Below, in pieces: positions 3,074 through 43,400 of a stretch of DNA of 64,000 nucleotides. Position 1 is the stretch's first letter, and every line of letters starts with the position of its first letter. Location of the stretch: assembly GCF_021502675.1 (NCBI RefSeq), contig NZ_JAKFHA010000028.1:1-64000 (forward strand), written 5' to 3'. The stretch comes from Yinghuangia soli. GTDB taxonomy: Bacteria > Actinomycetota > Actinomycetes > Streptomycetales > Streptomycetaceae. A model generated the notes under the pieces. That model did not search any database and was not told where the DNA came from. It saw only the letters and a list, made by a program, of their open reading frames with translations. A program made the translations under genes and the position numbers.

Positions 3074-3799
3074 TCAGGCCTGCTTCGCGTCGAGCAGCTT
3101 GGCCATCAGCTCGGGGTGCCCCTCGAGCGCCGTGCGGATCTGGCCGTCGGCGATCGGGTCGTACGACGGGATGTCGATGGCGTCCCAGTCCAGCGGGCCC
3201 TGCGGCGGCTGCGGGTCGTACTCGATGAACAGCTGGGTGAGACGCGAGAATTCGGTGCTGACCAGGCGTTCGACGAGCTTGAGGGCCATGTCGATGCCGG
3301 CCGCGACGCCGGCCGCGGTGATGACGGGGCCGTCCTCGACCCAGCGTTCGGCGACCGGGGTCGCGCCGAAAACGGGGAGGCGCTCGCGGTAGATCCAGTG
3401 CGTGGTGGCGCGGCGTCCGTCGAGGAGTCCGGCTTCGCCGAGCAGCAGGGCGCCGGTGCAGACCGAGGCGATGACCTGGGCGGTGGCTCCGGCGGTGCGG
3501 ATGTAGTCGACGAGTTCCTTGTCGGCGAGCGCGGCGAGGGTGGGTTCCTCGCCGCCGGGGACGATGAGGACGTCCGGGGCGGGGACTTCGGCGAAGCTGC
3601 GATTCGCGGTGATGCCGAGCGGCGTGTCGGTGCCCATGGGCGTGTCCTTCTGCGCGGCGACGGTCACCACCTCGAAGGGGAGGTTGAAGCGCGGCAGTGC
3701 GGCGAGGGTCTGGAGCGGGCCGGCGATGTCGAGCAGGGTCAGCCCCGGGTAGGCCACGAAGGCGATGGTCTTGCGGGGAGTTGCATCGGTTTCCGTCAT
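3074..3799 (-). CDS. DJ-1/PfpI family protein (isonitrile-hydratase-like)
   Basis: 241 residues, one class I glutamine-amidotransferase-like fold. The nucleophile elbow is visible as SVCTGALLLGEAG with Cys about residue 114, preceded by the glycine-rich VPGGEE that holds the acidic partner. The N-terminal AYPGLTLLDIAGPLQTL and the RRATTHW segment are typical of the isonitrile hydratase/ThiJ branch. ATG 3799 is chosen because AAGGTGG lies 5 nt upstream; an in-frame GTG at 3808 would overlap that site. It is divergent from a GlxA-type regulator (116 bp between starts) that carries the same fold at its N terminus, so the regulator may control it. The substrate is unknown. Confidence 0.85.
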   Translation of the reverse strand: MTETDATPRKTIAFVAYPGLTLLDIAGPLQTLAALPRFNLPFEVVTVAAQKDTPMGTDTPLGITANRSFAEVPAPDVLIVPGGEEPTLAALADKELVDYIRTAGATAQVIASVCTGALLLGEAGLLDGRRATTHWIYRERLPVFGATPVAERWVEDGPVITAAGVAAGIDMALKLVERLVSTEFSRLTQLFIEYDPQPPQGPLDWDAIDIPSYDPIADGQIRTALEGHPELMAKLLDAKQA

Positions 3800-34477: not shown

Positions 34478-37127
<2,650 letters not shown>

Positions 37128-37128
<1 letters not shown>

Positions 37129-38495
37129 TGGCTGGCACAGGCAGGCAGGGCTCCGGCCGCGGCAACTACCGCGGCGCGGGCAACAACCGCGACGAGCGCT
37201 CCGGCGCACCGCGCGGCGAAAGCCGCGGAGGGGCGGCCGGGCGCGACGGCGGGAGCCGGGGTGCGGGCCAGGGGTCCGGCGGCTACGGCGAGCGTTCCGG
37301 CGGTCCGGGCGGCGGCGGTTACGGCGGCAGCCGGGGCGCGGGCCAAGGCTCCGGCGGCCGCGGCGGGTCCGGCGGCGGCTACGGCGAGCGTTCGGGCGGC
37401 TCGGGCAGTTCGGGTGGCGGTTACGGCGGCGGCCGAGGCGGTTCTTCCGGCGGCCGAGGCGGCGCGGGCGGCCAGGGCGGCGGCCGCGGTGGCTCCGGCG
37501 GCGGGTATGGCGAGCGTTCCGGCGGGTCCGGTGGCGGCTACGGCGGCGGCTCGGGCCGCTCCGGTGGCAGCGGCAGCGGCAGCGGTTCCGGCGGCGGTTC
37601 GCGCTCCGGCGGCAGCGCCGGGCGTCCGGGCTCCGGCGGCTACGGCTACGGCGGCACCGGGAACACCGGCGGCCGTCCGGCGCAGAACCGGCGTCCCGCG
37701 GGTGGCACGTCGCGCCCCGACCGGCGCCCGACGACCGTCCGCGAGGGCGAGCGCACCCCGCGCGAGGCGCAGGAAGGCGTGCGCCTGCAGAAGGTGATGG
37801 CCCAGGCCGGCATCGGCAGCCGCCGCGCGTGCGAAGAGCTCATCGAGATGGGCCGCGTCGAGGTCAACGGCAAGGTCGTGCGCGAGCAGGGCATGCGCGT
37901 CGACCCGGCACAGGTCGAGATCAAGGTCGACGGCCTGCGGATCCCGACGTCCAGCGGCGAGGTCTACATAGCGCTGAACAAGCCGGCCGGCGTCGTGTCG
38001 ACGATGTTCGACCCGGAGGGCCGCCCGACGCTGTCGGAGTACATCACCGACCACGAGCAGCGGCTGTTCCACGTCGGGCGCCTGGACACCGACACCGAGG
38101 GCCTGATCCTGCTCACCAACCACGGCGAGCTGTCGAACCGGCTGACCCACCCGCGCTACGAGGTGACCAAGACGTACCTCGCGCAGATCCAGGGCCCGAT
38201 CCCGCGCGACCTCGGCAAGCGCCTCAAGGAAGGCGTCGAGTTGGAGGACGGCCTGGCGCGCGCGGACAGCTTCCGCATCATCGACCAGCTCGGCAAGACC
38301 TACATGGTCGAGGTCGTGCTGCACGAGGGCCGCAAGCACATCGTCCGCCGCATGCTGGCTGAGCTCGGCTTCCCGGTCGAGCGCCTGGTCCGCACGAAGT
38401 TCGGCCCGATCCAACTGGGCGACCAGCGCCCGGGCCGCACCCGCCGCCTCTCGAACGAGGAGATCGGCCTCCTCTTCCGCGAGGTAGGCCTGTAG
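37128..38495 (+). CDS. rluB: Pseudouridine synthase RluB/RsuA family with Gly/Arg-rich extension
   Basis: 455 residues. Residues 1-215 are Gly, Ser, Arg and Tyr in repeats such as GSGGGYGERSGG. The S4 domain follows (VRLQKVMAQAGIGSRRACEE), then the RsuA catalytic domain with GRLDTDTEGLILLTNHGEL, where the first Asp is the catalytic nucleophile, and LHEGRKHIVRRMLAELG. It modifies uridine in 23S rRNA (position 2605 in E. coli RluB). The RGG-like extension could help RNA binding and echoes the repeat protein at the left end of the window. scpA-scpB-rluB order is conserved across Gram-positive bacteria. Confidence 0.92.
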
Positions 38496-38523
38496 GCGCT
38501 CGAATAGGTGTCCACTCCCACGG

Positions 38524-38615
38524 GTGAAGTGACGGTGATTCCCGGACATGGTCGACCGACGCGACGAAACTGACGGCGCCGAGGACAACCGGACGGAGGG
38601 GGTCATGAGTCTTGC
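38524..38615 (+). repeat. 92-bp near-identical leader, copy 1
   Basis: This segment and 39308-39399 differ at one base only. It spans the upstream region, the ribosome site and the first codons (MSLA) of the first Uma2 gene, then identity stops abruptly. The offset is 784 bp. Confidence 0.95.
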
Positions 38616-39195
38616 TCACGGATTCGGGGGCGGCGATTTCCTGTCGCACCCTGGTGAATGGACAGTGCAGGAGGTTCTGGACCTGCCTGAGGACAGCCAT
38701 CAGCGCACCGAGCTTGTGGACGGTGCGCTGATCATGTCGCCCAGTGCAGGTGTTCCGCATCAGCGGGCCATGGTCAGGCTGTGGCGCGTGCTGGCGGATG
38801 CGGCCGAGGCAGTCGGCGCGCCGGTCGAGGTGCTGCCGGACGTCAACGTCCTGGTGCCGTGCGGGTTGCTGATCCCGGACATTGCGATCCTGGACGCCCA
38901 GGTGGCCGCACGTGCGGACAAGGTGGTGCCCGCAGAGGCGGTCTTCGTGGTCGTGGAGGTCGTGTCCCCGTCCAATCGCCGGACGGACATGGCACTCAAG
39001 CCGAAGGTCTACGCCGAAGCAGGGATCCCGCAGTACTGGCGCGTCGAGTTGGCGCCGGCTGCGTGCATCACCGTCGATGAACTGGACGGGGGTCGCTACG
39101 TCACCACGCAAGTCATCACCGCAGGGCGGCCGGGGCAGGTGCTGAAGCCCTTCCCCGTCGACCTCGACCCGGGAATCCTGCCGGGGCCGCGCTGA
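38605..39195 (+). CDS. Uma2-family (DUF820) putative PD-(D/E)XK nuclease, copy 1
   Basis: 196 residues from ATG 38605, which has a strong GGAGGGGG site 3 nt upstream. An in-frame ATG at 38548 would add 19 residues. The fold markers are WTVQEVLDLPEDSHQRTELV, then LLIPDIAILD (first Asp), VVVEVVSPSNRR (Glu) and KPKVYAEAGIPQYWRV (Lys). These form the PD-(D/E)XK site of the Uma2 family, which is abundant in cyanobacteria and actinomycetes. The biological role is unknown. It is a single-gene unit with its own leader and 3' hairpin, followed by a diverged paralogue. Confidence 0.88.
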   Translation: MSLAHGFGGGDFLSHPGEWTVQEVLDLPEDSHQRTELVDGALIMSPSAGVPHQRAMVRLWRVLADAAEAVGAPVEVLPDVNVLVPCGLLIPDIAILDAQVAARADKVVPAEAVFVVVEVVSPSNRRTDMALKPKVYAEAGIPQYWRVELAPAACITVDELDGGRYVTTQVITAGRPGQVLKPFPVDLDPGILPGPR

Positions 39196-39220
39196 CGGCC
39201 GGTCGCGGCCGATGGGGCCG

Positions 39221-39257
39221 GAAGAGCGTCGCTACGCGGAGCGTGGCGGCGCTCTTC
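39221..39257 (+). terminator. 17-bp hairpin after Uma2 copy 1
   Basis: Arms 39221-39237 and 39241-39257 pair over 17 positions with two G-U pairs, loop GGA. It has the same arm sequence as the hairpin after copy 2. The following TACGAT (39258-39263) could be a -10 box for the second gene. Confidence 0.8.
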
Positions 39258-39307
39258 TACGATGAAGGGGGTCTGTACGGCACCCGCACAGGCGTTCGCT
39301 CCGAAGA

Positions 39308-39399
39308 GTGAAATGACGGTGATTCCCGGACATGGTCGACCGACGCGACGAAACTGACGGCGCCGAGGACAACCGGACGGAGGGGGTCATGAGTCTTGC
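39308..39399 (+). repeat. 92-bp near-identical leader, copy 2
   Basis: Second copy of the segment at 38524-38615, with one difference (A at 39313 against G at 38529). It includes a GGTCGACC palindrome and the GGAGGGGG ribosome site. Confidence 0.95.
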
Positions 39400-39979
39400 C
39401 CAGGTGGAGGTTCCACAGCGGACTGGAATCAGTCAGCCGTGGACCGTGGAACAAGTCCTGCGGATGCCGGACGACGCGGAGCAGCGGACCGAGCTGGTCG
39501 GCGGGTCGCTGCTGATGTCGCCGAGTCCCGGACTGCCGCATCAGATGGCCTCGCGGCGGTTGGCGAACCGGCTGGAGAGCGCCGCTGCGGCGGCGGGGTT
39601 CCCGATCGTCGTGTACGAGGCCGTCAACGTCGTGTTCGCCGACAGTCTGCTGATTCCGGACATCGTCCTGGTCGACGACCTGGCGGCGAGCGACGAAGAC
39701 GGCCGGGCAGTGCCTGCCGAGGCGGTGCTGCTCGCCGTCGAGATCGCGTCGCCGTCCAACCGGGCGAACGACGTCACGGTGAAACCGGCGATCTACGCGG
39801 CGGCCGGGATCCCCTGGTACTGGCGCCTCGACATGCGGCCGGCCCCGAAGCTGGTGATCAGCGAGTTGGAGGCAGGCCGCTATGTCGAGCGGTCGGTGGC
39901 ACCGGCCGGCAAGGACACCTCGTGGGAGGAGCCCTTCCCGATGACACTGAATCCGTTGGAGCTGCTGCGCCTGCGGTGA
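39389..39979 (+). CDS. Uma2-family (DUF820) putative PD-(D/E)XK nuclease, copy 2
   Basis: 196 residues, the same length as copy 1. The same markers are present: WTVEQVLRMPDDAEQRTELV, LLIPDIVLVDD, LLAVEIASPSNRA and KPAIYAAAGIPWYWRL. The nuclease-type Asp, Glu and Lys are conserved. Beyond the first four residues the protein is clearly diverged from copy 1, while the 92-bp leader is almost identical. Whether these proteins cut DNA or act as regulators is not established. A hairpin with a UUCG loop ends the unit. Confidence 0.88.
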   Translation: MSLAQVEVPQRTGISQPWTVEQVLRMPDDAEQRTELVGGSLLMSPSPGLPHQMASRRLANRLESAAAAAGFPIVVYEAVNVVFADSLLIPDIVLVDDLAASDEDGRAVPAEAVLLAVEIASPSNRANDVTVKPAIYAAAGIPWYWRLDMRPAPKLVISELEAGRYVERSVAPAGKDTSWEEPFPMTLNPLELLRLR

Positions 39980-40002
39980 AAGCGGCCCGAGCCGGAGAGA
40001 AG

Positions 40003-40040
40003 GAAGAGCGTCGCTGCACTTCGGTGCGGCGGCGCTTTTC
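40003..40040 (+). terminator. 17-bp hairpin with UUCG tetraloop after Uma2 copy 2
   Basis: Arms 40003-40019 and 40024-40040 pair fully (some G-U pairs) around a C(TTCG)G tetraloop. The left arm begins GAAGAGCGTCGCT, exactly as in the hairpin at 39221. Confidence 0.85.
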
Positions 40041-40046
40041 TATGAT
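40041..40046 (+). promoter_or_regulatory. Probable -10 of the Pr6Pr gene
   Basis: TATGAT directly follows the hairpin and stands 6 nt before ATG 40053, fitting a leaderless transcript. The -35 would fall inside the hairpin and is not obvious. Confidence 0.5.
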
Positions 40047-40052
40047 CTTGGG

Positions 40053-40751
40053 ATGGATTCGACCGGTTCGGAAGAGCGGCTGGGGCTCAGCCGCCAGGAT
40101 GTGCGCACGTTCGCGCGGATGTGGCACGGGCTGACCGCGCTGATCGGGCTGGTCGGGCTGATCACGCAGTTCGTGCTGAGTGCCAAGGGCAGTTCCGAGT
40201 CCTCGTCGGACAACCCCGCGGTGCGGATCCTGCGGTACTTCAGCTTCTTCACGATCCAGAGCAACATCCTCATCACCGTGACCGCGGTGCAGTTGACGCT
40301 GCGGCCGGACCGGGACGGGCCGCTGTGGCGGGTCCTGCGGCTGACCGCGCTGGTGTGCATCACCACGACCGGGATCGTGTACGGGACAGTGCTGGCCGGC
40401 ACCGTCGAGCTGCACGGGGCCGGGCTGTTCGCGGACAAGCTGCTGCACTACGCGATGCCTGCGGTGGCCGTGCTGGGCTGGTTCCTGTTCGGGCCGCGGC
40501 CGCGCATCGACCGGGCGACTCCGGTGCTGATCCTGGCCTTTCCGCTGTGCTGGGCGGTCTACACGCTGATCCACGGGGCGATCACCGACTGGTACCCGTA
40601 CCCGTTCACGGACGTGGTGGAGCGCGGCTATGCCGCTGTCATCCGCAACATCCTGTTCGTGGGCGTGATGATCGTGGTGTTCGGCATGGCGTACGGGTAC
40701 GGCGACCGCAAGCTGCCGGTGGTGCCGGACCGGCGGCGGGTGCCCCGCTGA
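40053..40751 (+). CDS. Pr6Pr-family membrane protein
   Basis: 232 residues with six membrane helices. Family landmarks are ILRYFSFFTIQSNILITVTA in the second helix region, LLHYAMPAVAVLGWFLFGPR, and GAITDWYPYPFTDVVERGY near the fifth helix. There is no signal peptide and the C terminus is basic. The function of this family is unknown. The start has no ribosome site but follows a TATGAT box. It lies between the Uma2 twin genes and the paired large genes, without clear operon linkage to either (165 bp to the next start). Confidence 0.85.
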   Translation: MDSTGSEERLGLSRQDVRTFARMWHGLTALIGLVGLITQFVLSAKGSSESSSDNPAVRILRYFSFFTIQSNILITVTAVQLTLRPDRDGPLWRVLRLTALVCITTTGIVYGTVLAGTVELHGAGLFADKLLHYAMPAVAVLGWFLFGPRPRIDRATPVLILAFPLCWAVYTLIHGAITDWYPYPFTDVVERGYAAVIRNILFVGVMIVVFGMAYGYGDRKLPVVPDRRRVPR

Positions 40752-40916
40752 GCGGTCGCGCACGCGTGGTCGACGCGCGTCCGGGGAAGTTGCGGCGTAC
40801 GACACGCCACTGGGTTCGCCACCCGGCTGCGGCGCCGGGCAACGCCTGCTAGAACGTTGGCAGGGTGACGCGCCGCGTTCGAATGCGCCACCCGGTCGAT
40901 CGGGGTGGGGGGTGGC

Positions 40917-43400
40917 GTGGCGGCGAACACGGGCGGAGCGATCCTCGACCGGATCGTCTACCGGTGGCAGGACCGGGACTTGCTGGGCGGGCACGGGTTG
41001 GGGCCCGTCGCGACGTCCCTTGCGCCCGGCGGGCTGGATGCATGGGCGGCCGAACTGGCCGGGCACGTGGGCATGGACGTCGACGCCGAGAGCGGCCCGT
41101 ACACGAGTGTGTGCTGGGCCCGGACCAGTTCGGGGCCCGCGCTGGTGCACCGCGAGTTCGCGCTGCACGGGCGCGACAGCAGGCCCGGCAACGTGGCCCA
41201 CGTGCTGCTCGACCCGGGGCGGGCGCTGGGGCCGCATGTGGTGCTGGCGCTCGGCAAGTTCGACTGGGCTGGCGAAGGCGGGCCGCCGGGCGAAGTCGCG
41301 CCGGGCTACGCGCTCACCGGGATCTCCGCGGAACGCCTGATCGCCGTCGCATACGAGCGTGCCGCCGGGCTGCGGGCGGCGGCCCGGACCAGGCGTCCGG
41401 CACTGGAGCGCATCGTCGAGACGCTGCTGGCGCGCCCGCGTGCCACGCTCTCGCTGCTGCAGCGCGACGCCGGCCCGGACCCCACGCCGCTGCTGTGGGG
41501 CGTGTTCGACTTGGTCAGCCATCTGGTGCGGGGGAGTTGGAGCTTCTCGACGTACGAGACCCGCGACGATGCGAGCCGCCCCCGGTTCGTCGTGCTGCCG
41601 CACTGGCCGCGCGACGAGTCGCCCGCGCGCGAGCGGCTGGACATCGGCGGGGACGCGGGGCCGCGCGGCGGCATCTACGCCGAGGCGGCGCGCCGCCTGG
41701 TGGCCTGCTACGCCGAGCGGCCGTGGGAGGAAACCCGGGCGCTGCTCGTCGAGTTGCGCCTTGCCGCGGAGCTGGAGCCGTGGGCCAAGGCGCAGGCGGT
41801 GCTGCGGGTGCTGGAGGCGGATCCGCCTGCGCGTGCGGCGAAGGCCGGCGCGAAGGCGGGGGCCGGTGCGAAGGCGGGGGCCGCGCCGGGCGCGGGCGGT
41901 ACGGCGGACCCGACGTGGGCGGCGGGGGTTTCCGCGGCCGGCGGTGCGCCGAGTGCCGGCGGCTCCGGCGGTTCTGGTGGATCCGGTGGTGCCGTGGGCG
42001 CCGCCGCGGCGCTGGCTGCGGCGGCCAGGAACCTGCCGGAGACCGCGCACATGCCCGTGGTCGCGGCCGGTGACGCCGGCCGGCAGGCGGCAGGCGGTGA
42101 TGCCCCGGACCGCGAGTCCCGGGTGTCGCTGGTGAAGGCCGGGCGCCGGCACGGGGCTTCGCCGCACGGTGCGGCGGGGCGGTCGGGTGCGGCGGCGCCG
42201 AGCGGGTGGGACTCGCTGGTGCGGGCGTCGGTCCCGGATCCGGACTCCGGGGCGGCGCGGCGCCGCGCGGAGGCGGTGCCGGGTCCGGCTGCCGCGGGTC
42301 CGGCCGCCGCAGGTTCGGCCCCGACGGGTCAGGCTGCCCCGGGTTCGGGCGCGACGGGTCCGGCGGCCGCGGGTTCGGCCGTCCCAGGCGCGGCGCTGTC
42401 GGCAGGCCACGCGCAGGGGCCTGCCGGGGCGGTGGATTCCATCGGGCCGGGCGGTCCGGGTGCGGCGCGGCACAAGGTGCGGAGCATGGACATCCCGGCA
42501 CCGCCTTCCCCGGCCCCCGGCGGTGGTTCGGGCGCGGCGCCCGCGCCGGCCGCACCGGTGGCGCCGCCGCAGATCGAGCGGCCGCACGGGCCCGCCCCGG
42601 AGCAGCCCGAGACGCGCTACCTCCCCGTCGCGCTGCCGGTCCCCGAGCGGGCGGCTCCGGCGGCTCCGCCCGGCGCGCGGCGTTCCGGCCGGGCAGGCGG
42701 CCCCGGGCAGCCAGGGGGCGGGCCGCTCGCGCCGGGCACGCGCGGGCTGCTGCCACCGCAAGGTGCCCCGGCGGCACCCCCGCCTCCCAACGGGCCGCCC
42801 GAGCGTACGCCGCGCGACTGGGACCGGGCCGGGTGGGCCGAGGACGGCGTATCGGACCATGCGCTGCAGGCGCTGGCCGATGCGGCGCGCCGGCTCGCGG
42901 GCGGCGCGACCGTGCAGGACCCGGAGTTCCGGGCGCGTCTGGAGCAGGCGGACCTGGTCGCGGTGGCGGTCGGGCTCGAACGCGCGGACGAGGCCTTGCT
43001 GCCCGCGCTGGTCGAACGCCTGAGCGTCCTGGTCGCCAGTCCGCCGCGGTTCCCGACCCCGCGCGAGCAGGCCGCGCTCGAACGCGTGCTCGCCGGGCTC
43101 GACGGCCCGTTGCGCACGGTCGACCGGTGCGGTGTGGCGCGCCATCAGATCGCGTCAATCATCGGCCAGTTCGCCGCATATGTCCTCGACGGGTGTCAGA
43201 CTGACAGCGCGGCCGACCACTTGGCCGCGGTCGTCCGCAACCTCGACACCGTCCCCGGCACCTATCGCCCGTACCAGCAGGAACTCATCCGGGCCGCGGT
43301 CGTGCACGGCCTCGGCGCACGCTTCTTCGAGGAGATCGGCCGGCTGTGGGCGGCCAGCCGATCCCTCCTTCCCGACCCGGCGGACCCCTTGGAGGGGTAG
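40917..43400 (+). CDS. Large three-part protein A of a paralogous pair (GTPase-associated-protein-like N domain)
   Basis: 827 residues. Residues 1-300 form a conserved domain: ILDRIVYRWQDRDLLGGHGL, then NVAHVLLDPG, LLWGVFDLVSHL, WSFSTYETRDDASRPRFVVL. Residues about 300-635 are an Ala/Gly/Pro linker. Residues about 635-827 are a helical domain (HALQALADAARRLAGGATVQ onward). The neighbour at 43403 has the same three parts. The N domain reminds me of the GTPase-associated protein 1 (GAP1) N-terminal families of actinobacterial GTPase-centred systems, but I cannot confirm it. No enzyme motif was found. GTG 40917 is preferred over GTG 40905, both behind a G-rich site. It ends 2 nt before the next gene. 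Confidence 0.72.
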   Translation: MAANTGGAILDRIVYRWQDRDLLGGHGLGPVATSLAPGGLDAWAAELAGHVGMDVDAESGPYTSVCWARTSSGPALVHREFALHGRDSRPGNVAHVLLDPGRALGPHVVLALGKFDWAGEGGPPGEVAPGYALTGISAERLIAVAYERAAGLRAAARTRRPALERIVETLLARPRATLSLLQRDAGPDPTPLLWGVFDLVSHLVRGSWSFSTYETRDDASRPRFVVLPHWPRDESPARERLDIGGDAGPRGGIYAEAARRLVACYAERPWEETRALLVELRLAAELEPWAKAQAVLRVLEADPPARAAKAGAKAGAGAKAGAAPGAGGTADPTWAAGVSAAGGAPSAGGSGGSGGSGGAVGAAAALAAAARNLPETAHMPVVAAGDAGRQAAGGDAPDRESRVSLVKAGRRHGASPHGAAGRSGAAAPSGWDSLVRASVPDPDSGAARRRAEAVPGPAAAGPAAAGSAPTGQAAPGSGATGPAAAGSAVPGAALSAGHAQGPAGAVDSIGPGGPGAARHKVRSMDIPAPPSPAPGGGSGAAPAPAAPVAPPQIERPHGPAPEQPETRYLPVALPVPERAAPAAPPGARRSGRAGGPGQPGGGPLAPGTRGLLPPQGAPAAPPPPNGPPERTPRDWDRAGWAEDGVSDHALQALADAARRLAGGATVQDPEFRARLEQADLVAVAVGLERADEALLPALVERLSVLVASPPRFPTPREQAALERVLAGLDGPLRTVDRCGVARHQIASIIGQFAAYVLDGCQTDSAADHLAAVVRNLDTVPGTYRPYQQELIRAAVVHGLGARFFEEIGRLWAASRSLLPDPADPLEG

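Follow-up and report, generated by a model that had tools for sequence, protein, structure and literature searches.

In bacteria, tandem paralogues are known to undergo gene conversion (concerted evolution), an ordinary repair process. Two neighbouring genes of the Uma2 family (PF05685, putative restriction endonuclease) in Yinghuangia soli show a likeness to it, in that they carry a short identical tract within diverged paralogues, in one register, which ends where homology fails. They differ from it in the placement of the tract, which covers a 5' non-coding segment plus four codons and not the gene body. We analyzed the pair within a stretch of 64,000 nucleotides (positions 1 to 64,000 of contig NZ_JAKFHA010000028.1, forward strand; hereafter the window), and we consider it probable that an old tandem duplication of the genes was followed by a recent, short gene conversion over their control region. 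The process is already known, the gene family is common and little is learned here on Uma2 protein function. The locus would be a small, tidy case in which two neighbours that diverged long ago have had their control region homogenised, and it cautions that near-identical leaders need not imply a recent duplication or a mobile module.

The Uma2 pair

The pair lies on the forward strand, downstream of an rluB-like pseudouridine synthase gene (37125..38495, forward strand, with Pfam matches to S4 and PseudoU_synth_2). Leader copy 1 (38524..38615) is predicted to contain a promoter, a 5' untranslated region (5'UTR), the Shine-Dalgarno-like sequence GGAGGGGG and the first four codons of Uma2 copy 1 (38605..39195, 196 residues, beginning MSLAHGF), and a hairpin follows at 39220..39258. 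Leader copy 2 (39308..39399) precedes Uma2 copy 2 (39389..39979, likewise 196 residues, beginning MSLAQVE), which is followed by a second hairpin, homologous to the first, at 40002..40041. Both proteins score above the PF05685 gathering cut-off of 27 bits (76.6 bits and E 2.1e-21 for copy 1, 81.8 bits and E 5.4e-23 for copy 2), and by eye both retain an aspartate (in IPDI), a glutamate (in VVE or AVE) and a downstream lysine (in KP). The first-pass annotation had described proteins that differ throughout and yet keep the PD-(D/E)XK residues, a description that holds at roughly 48 to 50% identity: 47.6% of residues are identical over 185 codons, or 91 of 183 in another alignment. Synonymous divergence is high (dS approximately 1.0 to 1.2 by NG86 and LWL85), with 28 of 60 four-fold sites identical between the copies.

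Set against the family, nothing out of the ordinary was noticed in the two proteins. Copy 1 matches the solved chains 9y1l_A and 6okh_A, and its best identity to any relative listed is 55 to 56%. The models of the PADLOC candidate PDC-S03 match both proteins; these matches do not demonstrate a defence role for the pair. Uma2 genes are common among the relatives, with matches at 1e-8 in 56 of the 61 genomes searched (60 relatives and the genome itself). By eye, no other pair lying within 2 kb was present among the matches listed for these 61 genomes, the nearest being one in G015 (C36) with its members approximately 2.5 kb apart.

The starts at 38605 and 39389 are predicted. Each frame is open farther upstream, from 38548 in copy 1 and from 39332 in copy 2, with an aligned ATG in the same-genus genome G001. 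We considered the leader as coding sequence on these grounds and rejected it: between our genome and G001, codon positions 1, 2 and 3 are identical at 15, 11 and 14 of 19 codons, respectively, a profile without the mark of coding sequence, and this reading is disfavoured because position 2 is the least conserved and because the relatives' rows can be started at a motif [MV][ST][VL]A. Such a start is available in 30 of 38 rows (MSVA in 23 of them), although the relatives' starts were chosen by a script favouring Shine-Dalgarno sequences and their agreement with the starts in the window is not independent.

Extent and borders of the leader repeat

The two leaders, 38524-38615 and 39308-39399, are offset by 784 bp and identical at 91 of 92 positions. 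Their sole mismatch is at 38529 (G/A), separating an exact run of 86 bp (38530-38615) from five further identical bases (38524-38528). On the right the first difference is at 38616 (T/C), which is the third position of codon 4 in ATG AGT CTT GCY. Two statements of the first-pass annotation, that near-identical 92-bp leaders stand 784 bp apart and that their identity stops four codons into each gene, are thus confirmed, the latter with the predicted starts.

We found older, diverged homology on both sides of the identical tract and in the same register, although on the right it returns only past a linker that cannot be aligned. This linker comprises the 14 to 16 residues that follow codon 4; at an offset of 784 and with no gaps, 38620-38649 matches copy 2 at 2 of 30 positions, and the stop of the tract at codon 4 would be explained by this loss of alignment. 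Farther on, in parts of the Uma2 domain core, identity at the same offset climbs to 23 of 30. On the left, 38500-38523 matches at 15 of 24 positions, or approximately 60% (the 15 being a bin of 20 less five leader matches). A local alignment of 38429-38528 with 39213-39312 scored 25, a value reached by none of 1000 shuffles (maximum 21) and by 3 of 1000 random pieces of the window (maximum 76, some of these pieces probably overlapping the query itself). This match, which is short and gapped, runs into the 3' tip of the rluB-like gene, and the tip appears to belong to the duplicated unit.

The hairpins provide a further stretch of older homology. Each has an 18-pair stem, with folding energies of -33.6 kcal/mol (z -4.90) for copy 1 and -33.0 kcal/mol (z -6.80) for copy 2, and none of 200 shuffles was as stable for either. 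The left arms are identical over 14 of 14 bases, in line with the first-pass annotation, and the right arms also agree over most of their length, which is more than was then claimed. The hairpins are possibly terminators. That of copy 1 has no T-run after it and was not picked up by a terminator scan, which found the inner part of the copy 2 hairpin (1 found against 0.6 expected). We also considered the hairpin as a dispersed repeat and rejected this: genome-wide there are 22 occurrences of its 12-base core GAAGAGCGYCGC, three of which fall in these hairpins, and the reversed control has 16, giving no clear family.

We propose that an old, in-situ tandem duplication would have copied a unit made of the rluB tip, the promoter and 5'UTR, the Uma2 gene and the 3' hairpin, after which the two genes, together with the outer flank and the loops of the hairpins, would have been free to diverge. 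At a much later date, once the lineage of the same-genus species G001 had separated, intragenomic homologous recombination would probably have copied a promoter and ribosome-binding segment of approximately 90 bp from one copy to the other, either as a non-reciprocal gene conversion or through an unequal exchange with the same outcome. The tract would end on the right where alignability is lost, at codon 4, and on the left within decayed homology of approximately 60%. An assembly artefact, in which one leader copy was written into the place of the other, could produce the same near-identity and gains some plausibility from the genome being a draft of 91 contigs, but the repeat is short, its two copies are told apart by the mismatch at 38529 and each stands in a different flanking context, and we regard such an error as extremely unlikely.

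Distances to same-genus genomes and the order of events

The same-genus genome G001 has a single Uma2 gene, in the same place after rluB. Copy 1 shares 93 of 187 residues and 27 of 59 four-fold sites with it, and copy 2 shares 93 of 186 residues and 29 of 61 four-fold sites, so that the distance between the two copies equals the distance of either copy to the G001 gene. The leader matches that of G001 at 65 of 92 positions (71%; 76% over 83 bp by search). Because the genes are as distant from one another as they are from the G001 gene, leaders of the same age would be expected to agree at near 70 to 76% of positions, not at 99%. With sites assumed independent, the probability of at least 91 identities in 92 is approximately 3e-10 at a per-site identity of 0.76, and 7e-4 at 0.9. 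The paralogues are therefore older than the tract, with 28/60 four-fold sites kept in the bodies as against 91/92 leader positions within the genome and 65/92 with G001. We infer from these comparisons a conversion event that postdates the separation of the species.

The equal divergence of the bodies from G001 suggests that the two copies separated no later than about the time of the species split. This dating is not sharp, because the four-fold sites are near saturation and because a faster neighbour, the gene at 40053-40751, has only 65 of its 117 four-fold sites in common between the window and G001 (with 169 of 219 residues). For the rluB product, compared over its C-terminal 231 residues, 221 are identical, as are 96 of the 129 four-fold sites.

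Phylogenetic trees lean toward an old split of the copies, and the order of events is not settled by them. In a tree of 32 rows, copy 1 grouped with the Uma2 protein of G037, a genome of another family (84/94), and copy 2 with that of G001 (86/63), both with modest support. A subset of 14 of these rows again placed copy 1 with G037 (81/92) and left copy 2 without resolution. Among the rows dropped is our own L028, which was not recovered at the threshold used. In a tree of 40 rows, for which identical proteins were merged and which includes a poorly filled row (L131) and three with doubtful starts (L118, L132 and L051), support was 93/88 for copy 1 with G037 and 88/75 for copy 2 with G001. A topology with the two copies as sisters was rejected by a narrow margin on the 14 rows (p-AU 0.040) and was retained on the 40 (p-AU 0.112), and forcing both copies together with G001 gave p-AU values of 0.118 and 0.255, respectively. 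A contig search returned 10 named relatives (best segment 32 to 59% identity), which were left out of the trees.

The grouping of copy 1 with G037, of another family, would suit a different history, in which the whole unit was duplicated recently and one gene body, perhaps that of copy 1, was then swapped by recombination for a diverged Uma2 gene transferred from elsewhere; the border just within the gene is also as such a swap would leave it. However, the upstream stretch and the hairpins have diverged too while remaining homologous, so that nearly everything except the 92 bp would have to be replaced, and with copy 1 at most 55 to 56% identical to the relatives listed no donor is visible. 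We judge body replacement to be unlikely, and continue with an old duplication and a recent conversion.

The searches brought up no relative carrying both copies, and only two other same-genus genomes came up. In the second of these, G002, just 57 bp lie between rluB and the next open reading frame (L086, G002:C1:6012000-6026000, 3116-3173), leaving no room for a Uma2 gene; the locus was either gained after that lineage branched off or lost in it. With the pair met in this single genome among those searched, either copy may have been the donor and either the recipient.

Downstream of the Uma2 pair are a 232-residue protein (40053-40751) that looks membrane-bound by eye and an open reading frame of 831 residues (40905-43400), neither with a Pfam match at E 0.1. 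The first has a homologue in G001 that is 77% identical and lies approximately 5.4 kb past the Uma2 gene, with other genes intervening there. A homologue of the second is, by eye, the open reading frame that follows rluB in G002. In the comparison of the loci, many low-complexity rows for rluB and for the 40905 open reading frame were set aside.

The leader as a probable control region

The first-pass annotation had called for a search of the genome and its relatives for the 92-bp segment. This returned the two copies in the window, the related leader in G001 and a few short hits with no Uma2 gene. Within the genome, no match under E 0.01 was found besides the two copies, the next best being at E 0.019. 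Matches at E 0.001 were present in 5 of the 61 genomes (the genome itself, G001, and short ones in G050, G045 and G017), and matches at 1e-4 in 4 of 394 genomes of the family (393 others and the genome itself, a set overlapping the 61), namely our own, G001, and short ones in G310 and G377. The 3-kb loci around the five short hits contain no Uma2 gene. Plasmid and phage collections gave no match to the leader, and neither did viral contigs to one exact 32-mer of it.

These searches bear on the two explanations offered at first pass, that the leader is kept identical by gene conversion or that it is a mobile or regulatory module fitted before diverged genes. A transposable, promoter-bearing module inserted twice would account for two different genes being preceded by nearly the same sequence, but beyond the G001 leader and the five short hits no dispersed copies were found in the genome, in the 60 relatives, in the 393 other family genomes, among plasmids and phages or, for the 32-mer, in viral contigs, and the older homology continues to the left of the leader and returns in the bodies and hairpins; we give this possibility next to no credence. 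Gene conversion is favoured by the diverged bodies and flanks, the fresh leader and the more distant leader of G001. The same annotation had linked a chance local conversion to a leader found nowhere else and to orthologues with unrelated leaders. Apart from G001 and the short hits, the leader is indeed found nowhere else, and by eye the leaders of more distant relatives are unrelated overall, but that of G001, at 71%, is related.

A base-by-base essential element, held identical by purifying selection since the old duplication, would need no conversion. The segment contains the predicted promoter, Shine-Dalgarno sequence and start, and parts of it are conserved with G001. Selection of such stringency is very unlikely, in our view, given that the leader of the syntenic G001 orthologue differs at 27 of 92 positions, that by eye the other relatives' leaders have no overall resemblance, and that among the 394 family genomes a match adjoining a Uma2 gene occurs only in our own and in G001. 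Selection may instead have acted on expression, homogenising the promoter and ribosome-binding site so that two cooperating Uma2 proteins (a heterodimer, for example) are made in equal amounts while their bodies diversify, a suggestion that we hold to be distinctly unlikely.

The simplest reading of the leader is that it comprises a promoter, a 5'UTR and a ribosome-binding site. The regulatory part of the earlier proposal is likely in this plain sense, and the leader as a special device fell away: as a structured RNA it was rejected, with a fold z of 0.00 and no Rfam match at the gathering score in 38400-40100. A strict sigma-70 scan found no promoter, and the promoter reading rests on a box at a matching place in the relatives. 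Among the 32 leaders of relatives with a parsable start motif, 17 carry the hexamer CACACT at 30 to 44 bases upstream of the start, whereas 300 shuffles of this stretch averaged 0.06 and never gave more than 1, a contrast that overstates independence since the rows are related. Counting four spellings of a CACACT-like box, 20 of 38 rows have one 31 to 43 bases before the start. The CACACT box, which lies approximately 40 bases upstream of the start in Uma2 orthologues from the order, is likely a shared -10 element, and the finding of a -10-like box at the corresponding position in roughly half of the relatives argues for a promoter rather than a mobile module. Our own leaders and that of G001 have none of the four spellings. 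At -39, by eye, they have GAAACT in the window and GAGAGT in G001, each 17 bases after CGGACA or CTGACA, respectively.
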